The translations under genes were made by a program, and so were the position numbers. The notes under the pieces were generated by a model. It did not search any database and was not told where the DNA came from. It saw only the letters and a list, made by a program, of their open reading frames with translations. 64,000 bases of DNA from a virus: the IMG/VR virus record IMGVR_UViG_3300033991_000123, positions 1-64,000 of that record; one strand, 5' to 3'. Of this stretch, positions 3,541 to 4,870 are shown piece after piece. Each line of letters begins with the position of its first letter. The stretch's first letter is position 1.

Positions 3541-4870
3541 TACTGACTATGCCATTACTATGCTAAACCCTACCCTAACTATACGATCCTAACTCTACAT
3601 TTCCATTACTAAACCCCACTATGCTAAACCCTACCCCAACCAAACCCGACTCCACTATACCCTAACTTTACCATTCAATACTCTACTGTACCCTAACCAA
3701 CACATAGCTACACAACGCTATACTATCACATCGCAATACCCAACCAAGCCAAACCAAACCAATACCCCACATTACCTTGCCAAACCATCACCAGACAATC
3801 CGTTACCATACCGGGACTCTGCATAACTATACCTATACGCTCGTGACTATGCTATACCTTACCTATACTTTACAATGCTATACCTATACTTGACCTTGAC
3901 TTTACTAAGCATTACCTCACAATACCAATACTTAACTTTAAGTTGCTCAACCAGCACAACACAAAACAACACCTTTGCTTGACCCAACGATACTGCACAT
4001 TGCCAAACCAGCACAATGCGTTACTATAACAGTACTATACTATACCTTACCCCCACGCAGCATTGCAATACCTTACCTTGCCTCAACAGCGCAATACTTA
4101 ACCAAGCAGAAACCCCACGCCACAATTCAATAGTATGCCCCCACAACGCATCACAAAACTCTAACTTACCTCAACTCCACACCACTGTACCTCGCCGCGA
4201 CTCTACATAATCGTACCACACCATGCAAAACCCATGCAAAACCTAACCATGCAAAACCTACACTATGCCATACTACACTTTACCATTACATCTCTCAACT
4301 ACACCATATCTAACCATGCCGTTACCATGCTATTCGTAACATTGCTATACCAGAACTGAACAAAACTCGACGAACGGCACCCTTACAATACCCCACCACA
4401 CAATGCCGCAACTATATCTTACAAGACTATACAACGCCATCACATCACAAAACCTTACCTATACCGCACCCACAACACTCGCTTTGCCCGCACAAAACTA
4501 AACACCACTTTACCTATGCCGTACAATCGCAACTACACGTTATCTAGACGATACCGTACCTTACCAAAACTTCACTCAACCCAACCCCACTCCTCTATGC
4601 AAATACCGAACTTAACTGCACCGTACCTTACCATTACTTAACGTCACCGTACAATACCATACCTTTACTGGTCCAGACCATACAATACCCTGCCCAACCG
4701 CCACATATCATTACTTCACTATACCACTACATTATCTCGCCTAAATACACCTTTACTAAACTGCACGTCCCCATGCCTCCACAACACGTAACATTACTAC
4801 GCCCTAACATTACCATGCCTTGCCAAGACCTTACGGTACCTAACTATACTTTTACTCAACCTTACAGAAA
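3541..4870. repeat. AC-N3 quasi-periodic array 2 (about 1.33 kb)
   Basis: Same texture as the 1966-2750 array: AC about every 5 bp on a G-poor + strand, with frequent words TATAC, TAAAC, CCTAC, CATAC and a few short runs such as repeated CATGCAAAACC near 4220-4255. No gene is supported; the frames at 4016-4210 and 4773-4988 are composed of array words. It lies between the 84-aa gene and the hairpin at 4874-4899. Confidence 0.85.

Follow-up and report, generated by a model that had tools for sequence, protein, structure and literature searches.

In this study, we describe a long, degenerate ladder of regularly recurring letters that accompanies a gene for a Cas7-like protein in phages and prophages. 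We came upon it in positions 1 to 64,000 of the viral record IMGVR_UViG_3300033991_000123 (the window), where two such arrays lie close to the gene. As a ladder is found beside the cas7-like gene in nearly every relative, it is probably a custom-made binding track, and we hold with moderate confidence that the array, read as RNA together with its gene, serves the Cas7-like protein as a dedicated track for polymerisation.

Results

Arrays in the window

Both arrays were assigned to the minus strand. Array 1 (1960–2756) has about 154 units with a mean step of 5.174 nt by HMM; array 2 (3543–4865) has 256 units of the minus-strand form GTann with a mean step of 5.164–5.169 nt, as judged by HMM, periodogram and learned unit. 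On the plus strand both read as AC, sometimes GC, spaced by 5 with regular 6-steps (mean about 5.17), and on the minus, gene-coding strand G followed by T recurs, the G being the best-kept base. The AC/GC periodogram of array 2 peaks at 97.9 at a period of 5.19 (maximum 9.4 in 300 Markov shuffles) and that of array 1 at 82.6 at 5.175 (maximum 8.7 in 300 Markov shuffles). The initial annotation had described array 2 as a stretch obeying an AC-N3 rule. The array is real and its AC recurs steadily, but the units are AC or GC and the step is 5.17 rather than 5; since just 92 of the 212 distances from one AC to the next in array 2 equal 5, AC-N3 is an approximation.

That the two arrays follow one rule without copied sequence, as had been proposed, is borne out by alignment: their best common match scores 31.0 bits, inside the null range (mean 29.5, maximum 40.1), and array 2 is no duplicate of array 1. 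The free positions hold no repeated sequence, with 95–96% of 10-mers unique, and a tandem-repeat finder (TRF) reported only small patches in the window. A search for Rfam families and tRNAs found none. Array 1 holds its phase from end to end (residual SD 0.52 nt, versus 1.22 for permuted steps, p = 0.001), and array 2 drifts more (1.21 versus 1.79, p = 0.10).

The two minus-strand genes reported to separate the arrays are present, as ORFs of 174 aa (2751–3275) and 84 aa (3272–3526), neither with a known family or an accepted Pfam match. Directly beyond array 1, the minus strand encodes a DUF3850/ASCH-like protein of RNA-binding type (1541–1951; Pfam PF12961, E = 1e-26; phrog_986), a homologue of which lies about 0.7 kb from the array in the related locus L017. 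The perfect hairpin reported at the right end of array 2 was likewise found, as a 10-bp perfect stem at 4874–4899 within a terminator-like element on the minus strand (4872–4901), placed between the stop codon of the cas7-like gene and array 2.

A stand-alone Cas7-like protein

The partner of the arrays, which the initial annotation had not connected with them, is the minus-strand gene at 4916–5560. It encodes a stand-alone Cas7-like protein of 214 aa (Csm3/type VII Cas7 fold), identified by fold, profile and co-occurrence with arrays. The AlphaFold2 model of this protein (pLDDT 84.6) matches Csm3 and type VII Cas7 in the PDB with a VIA Z of 13.1 (Foldseek E = 4e-8), and superposes on Csm3 (9g9f_D) with an rmsd of 2.9 over 157 residues, nearly the whole chain. 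Type VII Cas7 was also found from sequence alone with a profile of the window group (E = 3.6e-4). For a second group of array-adjacent proteins, phrog_4652, the AlphaFold2 model (pLDDT 93.6) gave a VIA Z of 11.7 and a Foldseek E of 1e-6 to Cas7 backbone subunits. Among the PDB matches listed, the top ones for both groups are without exception Csm3/Cas7-type chains from CRISPR effector complexes. Judged from these predicted structures, both families have the Cas7 fold and belong to the Cas7/RAMP superfamily. The window protein matched no family in PHROG or Pfam, and no PADLOC defence match was obtained for the Cas7-like proteins and one neighbour.

Elsewhere in the window, a radical SAM protein gene (6099–6848) lies in the early region, upstream of the cas7-like gene. 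An integrase (51752–53056; phrog_1) is encoded, together with matches to a portal protein (phrog_156) and an internal virion protein, and the phage is probably temperate. Two perfect DnaA-box-like TGTGGATAA sites stand in a short tandem repeat at 7677–7707, just ahead of the late (portal) operon, and one further perfect TGTGGATAA lies near the start at 129–137; these sites are a possible replication origin. A long cassette at 39691–48008 carries sugar-nucleotide, acetyltransferase-like and glycosyltransferase-like genes, including two pairs of diverged paralogues, and some of its genes match GtrB-like O-antigen conversion and glycosyltransferase PHROGs; its probable role is surface or virion glycan modification.

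Arrays beside homologous genes

Relatives of the window protein were gathered by protein search alone, which yielded 78 from phages and Clostridia prophages (27 from IMG/VR and 51 from bacterial genomes, mostly of gut Clostridia). The idea that all homologues carry AC arrays proved wrong, as almost none has an AC ladder; they have GC, GM or GT ladders instead. A generic periodogram revealed GC/GG ladders with the step of the window beside most of the 27 IMG/VR homologues. A model of five states was then trained on coding-strand sequence and used to score the arrays, with Markov shuffles and distant regions of the same contigs as controls. Scores exceeded 60 in 69 of 75 loci, a set that includes near-duplicates so that not all counts are independent, whereas the maxima for 75 shuffles and 67 far regions were about 60. 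The median was 139 at the loci, 16 in shuffles and 19 in far regions. With the threshold lowered to 35, 73 of the 75 loci pass, at the cost of 6 hits among the 75 shuffles and 12 among the 67 far regions.

The unit in the window clade is G-[C/A/T]-a-n-n on the coding strand, where the letters vary between GC, GA and GT while the step stays steady, and the best-kept column is the coding-strand G in 72 of the 73 accepted arrays. For arrays downstream of the gene, the distance from the stop codon has a median of −2 nt and is at most 15 nt in 41 of 47 cases; those upstream stop short of the start codon by a median of 34 nt. A terminator or promoter would hardly fit into gaps of this size, so most arrays should lie in the transcript of the gene; the window, with its terminator-like hairpin ahead of array 2, is an exception. 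Within 9 kb of the gene at the 73 loci, no conserved same-strand neighbour was seen beyond common phage genes, and no conserved nuclease. In temperate phages the gene and array adjoin repressor, integrase and excisionase genes. Two genes alternate with three arrays in L115, and the isolate genome of Porcincola intestinalis carries two gene–array pairs on different contigs (L198, L200).

Phase and selection

Unit positions in the 59 arrays of at least 350 nt were fitted to a straight line and compared with permuted steps. The residual SD was mostly 0.32–0.6 nt over 70–240 units, as against 0.8–1.4 for permuted steps, with coherence at p < 0.01 in 36 and at p < 0.05 in 48 of the 59 arrays; L132 reached 0.34 over 172 units, where rounding alone would give 0.29. 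Since the straight line outperforms permuted steps, it is absolute phase, beyond local spacing, that is maintained. The mean step in 45 coherent arrays was 5.162 ± 0.020. It ranges from 5.115 to 5.202 with a typical s.e. of 0.0016, and there is therefore no single rational value; a step fixed at exactly 31/6, or a ring model, was rejected on this between-array range. Step values did not significantly track the protein tree among near relatives (p = 0.11). No superperiod of 2 (even/odd), 6 or 12 units was found, and one of 5 units gave a weak excess (z 0.43 ± 0.15).

When related arrays were aligned, differences occurred at 1.5% of ladder G sites versus 11–15% in free columns. Between close relatives, G was lost at 4 of 449 ladder positions (0.9%) versus 48 of 301 free positions (15.9%), making loss about 17-fold rarer at the ladder (odds ratio 0.047, p = 4e-16). 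The ladder G is thus under strong purifying selection, direct support for the earlier suggestion of selection or a dedicated generating process. Ten gaps of at least 4 bases lay on average 0.50 nt off multiples of 5.165, where chance predicts 1.29, and array length varies from 352 to 680 nt among close relatives by whole blocks, with each array in phase. Structure prediction showed neither excess nor avoidance of RNA structure in the arrays.

A second family in named phages

Scanning IMG/VR for eight in-phase ACs returned at least 120 stretches, and an HMM with a diversity filter applied to those listed left 57 sources (56 loci and the window) with non-repetitive ladders. Their rule differs by phage (NNNAC, NNGAC, NNCAC, NNAAC, CNNAC, ANNAC or GNNAC). 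In an all-against-all comparison of neighbouring proteins, one protein family lay near the array in 29 of the 57 sources, a median of 15 bp away, and its scanned members match phrog_4652, whose function is unannotated. The array-adjacent gene of L017 encodes a protein 45% identical to that of the window, and profile comparison joins the window/L017 group to phrog_4652 members (E = 2.5e-5). Phrog_4652 is a second Cas7-like family with equivalent arrays, at steps of about 4.9–5.0. Because the alignment of this family is too divergent to seed a locus search, and most members were found via their arrays, its array frequency is less well sampled.

Isolate phages checked by protein all have arrays. 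In coliphage wV8 (gp95), four GGTNN modules surround the gene pair. Directly upstream of the gene, GGCNN arrays with steps of 4.90–4.96 occur in mycobacteriophages Saal, Brocalys, Quico, Donkeykong, Clifton, Zizzle, Mattes, BobaPhett and Gorge; arrays are also present in Gordonia phages UmaThurman (step 4.93) and Ecliptus (4.91) and in LittleE and MakoManhole, and prophiBWHA-1 has a weak one. Some second-family arrays are partly repetitive. In these well-studied phages the cas7-like gene is annotated as a hypothetical protein and some array DNA lies between annotated direct repeats, and in three mycobacteriophage loci array DNA is apparently annotated as small hypothetical protein genes (L213, 680–1066; L214, 793–981; L217, 827–991). 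L028 (3332–5659) has about ten short ACCNN ladders of 14–18 units each, parted by AT-rich linkers of similar sequence, a layout that recalls an inside-out CRISPR array.

The cas7-like gene of this family usually has a small second gene after it, and in phage Gorge the two are fused in one 405-aa ORF (L218, 1033–2250). One partner is annotated as a DNA binding protein and some look winged-helix-like by eye; Pfam returned no family for the partner genes. Part of the wider family has NAC rather than GNY on the coding strand, and related members, L105 and L044 for example, have opposite polarity. A fixed polarity is thus not a universal feature, and the arrays may be recognised as DNA. Step class did not significantly track the protein tree within phrog_4652 (p = 0.08).

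Discussion

Cas7 is the RNA-binding backbone of a filament, in which each known subunit holds about 6 nt. A track for the Cas7-like protein is the simplest reading of our data, as it accounts for the adjacency of gene and array, an RNA-filament fold, one contact per step, the free bases and the phase. On this reading, the coding-strand array would be transcribed with the cas7-like gene as a 5′ leader or 3′ tail, and each step of about 5.16 nt, marked in the window clade by G plus C, A or T, would seat one subunit. The protein would thereby polymerise on the RNA of its own locus into a long, regular ribonucleoprotein filament, and the free bases would drift because they carry no message. RNA is favoured by the co-transcription geometry and by the coding-strand polarity of the window clade. 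Against an RNA track stand the step itself, 5.16 rather than about 6 nt, the phase-locked non-integer spacing, which is that expected of a rigid duplex (two units making 10.3 bp), the hairpin that parts gene from array 2 in the window, the NAC coding strands in part of the wider family, the winged-helix-like look of second-family partners and the lack of significant tracking between step and protein tree; RNA structure is neutral.

The duplex-like, non-integer clock favours DNA instead, as do the polarity differences in the second family. The array might function in duplex form, either as a helical-phase operator or as a partition-like platform, with a Cas7-like protein in contact every half turn, and in the second family a winged-helix-like partner might join it; we regard each of these proposals as unlikely, though worth keeping in mind. 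Such a platform would have a step like the one seen here, phase-locked, real-valued and close to half a turn of B-DNA (5.165 × 2 = 10.33 bp per turn), and the polarity flip between L105 and L044, the DNA-binding-like partner adjoining the gene and the arrays that flank genes on both sides all point the same way. The step of about 4.92 in the second family would nevertheless mean 9.83 bp per turn, even and odd units are no different, and the G stays on the coding strand in all but one of the 73 window-clade arrays. To our knowledge, moreover, Cas7 folds are known from RNA filaments and not from duplex DNA.

What the RNA track would be for is a more tentative matter. We have low confidence in our first suggestion, a phage–phage or phage–host conflict (exclusion or anti-defence) in which the own array is the assembly substrate or a self-mark. 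Autoregulation of the early operon comes next and seems rather unlikely. A further proposal also concerns purpose and can overlap with either an RNA or a DNA track: self-immunity, where the array would soak up a Cas7-like prophage defence factor so that the own phage replicates. We consider it improbable. Its precedent is aba, a cognate non-coding DNA element beside the prophage defence gene bstA (PMC8585504), and in temperate phages the neighbourhood of repressor, integrase and excisionase genes would suit it. BstA is nevertheless a different protein, and aba a single 63-bp element with no ladder or periodic rule. The gene and array also occur in wV8, which is Felix O1-like and has relatives known to be virulent, and the PADLOC search was negative.

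A CRISPR-like guide array, whose free letters would pair discontinuously with targets, might be suggested by the Cas7 fold and by the position of free letters between fixed ones. We find it very hard to credit: with ladder letters disregarded, array segments show no better matches elsewhere in the 64-kb window than shuffles do, whichever strand is searched, and the free letters drift between close relatives. Despite the small TRF patches and partly repetitive second-family arrays, a mutational or assembly artefact, or an ordinary decayed tandem repeat or coding sequence, can practically be dismissed, because the genomes of independent phage isolates, Saal and wV8 among them, hold equivalent arrays, the free sites hold no repeated sequence, the ladder bases are under purifying selection and the period is not 3n.

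Among known systems, class 1 CRISPR-Cas offers the same fold over nearly the whole chain, in Csm3 of type III and Cas7 of type VII. The phage locus differs in having no repeats or spacers, no conserved companion cas gene was seen within 9 kb at 73 loci, and its ladder, at 5.162 ± 0.020 nt, does not have the 6-nt spacing of the Cas7 crRNA filament. Type IV-B Csf and HRAMP/ARAMP resemble it in using Cas7-like proteins without a CRISPR array, and the type IV-B filament assembles on non-guide RNA (PMC7937560; PMC12669027). These are, in contrast, multi-gene systems without a dedicated non-coding ladder, while the window clade makes do with a single gene and its array; nor does the phage locus have the makeup of HRAMP/ARAMP, type III-derived and array-less with an associated nuclease. 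The leader site of TRAP, a short fixed triplet with 2–3 free nt about every 5 nt in RNA (PMC3913778), is very like the GGC-NN and GGT-NN arrays in pattern. TRAP, though, is a 75-aa protein that forms an 11-subunit ring on 11 repeats (about 11 NAG), whereas the phage protein is Cas7-folded and its arrays run to 150–260 phase-locked units; with units of GTann or GCann, up to 256 of them, they are not TRAP sites. Nor are the arrays head-to-tail copies, as a tandem repeat or minisatellite would be. The fold is thus known and the locus is not CRISPR, and the nearest systems all lack a dedicated phase-locked ladder.

Nothing equivalent, whether phage degenerate arrays or phage Cas7, was met in open PMC papers. 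The element is apparently widespread and undescribed; as only the phase of one letter is conserved, similarity search misses it, and it can have gone unseen in well-studied phages.

In conclusion, phrog_4652 and a window clade that matches neither PHROG nor Pfam gain a function-linked context, and a CRISPR-type filament protein is placed outside any CRISPR system, with cultivable members whose laboratory hosts are M. smegmatis and E. coli. We lean towards a new two-part phage system, in which a lone Cas7-like protein is paired with a co-transcribed ruler RNA that would template a long ribonucleoprotein filament. With a similar slight preference, we suggest that such an RNA would carry no information beyond the phase in which one letter recurs, with a real-valued step of 5.16 nt (about 4.92 or 5.0 in sister groups). 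The system would, on somewhat better than even terms, span gut Clostridia prophages, mycobacteriophages, Gordonia phages and Felix O1-like coliphages. If the track reading is true, the phase-locked, non-integer step records in DNA the geometry of the filament, and this record can be tested directly.
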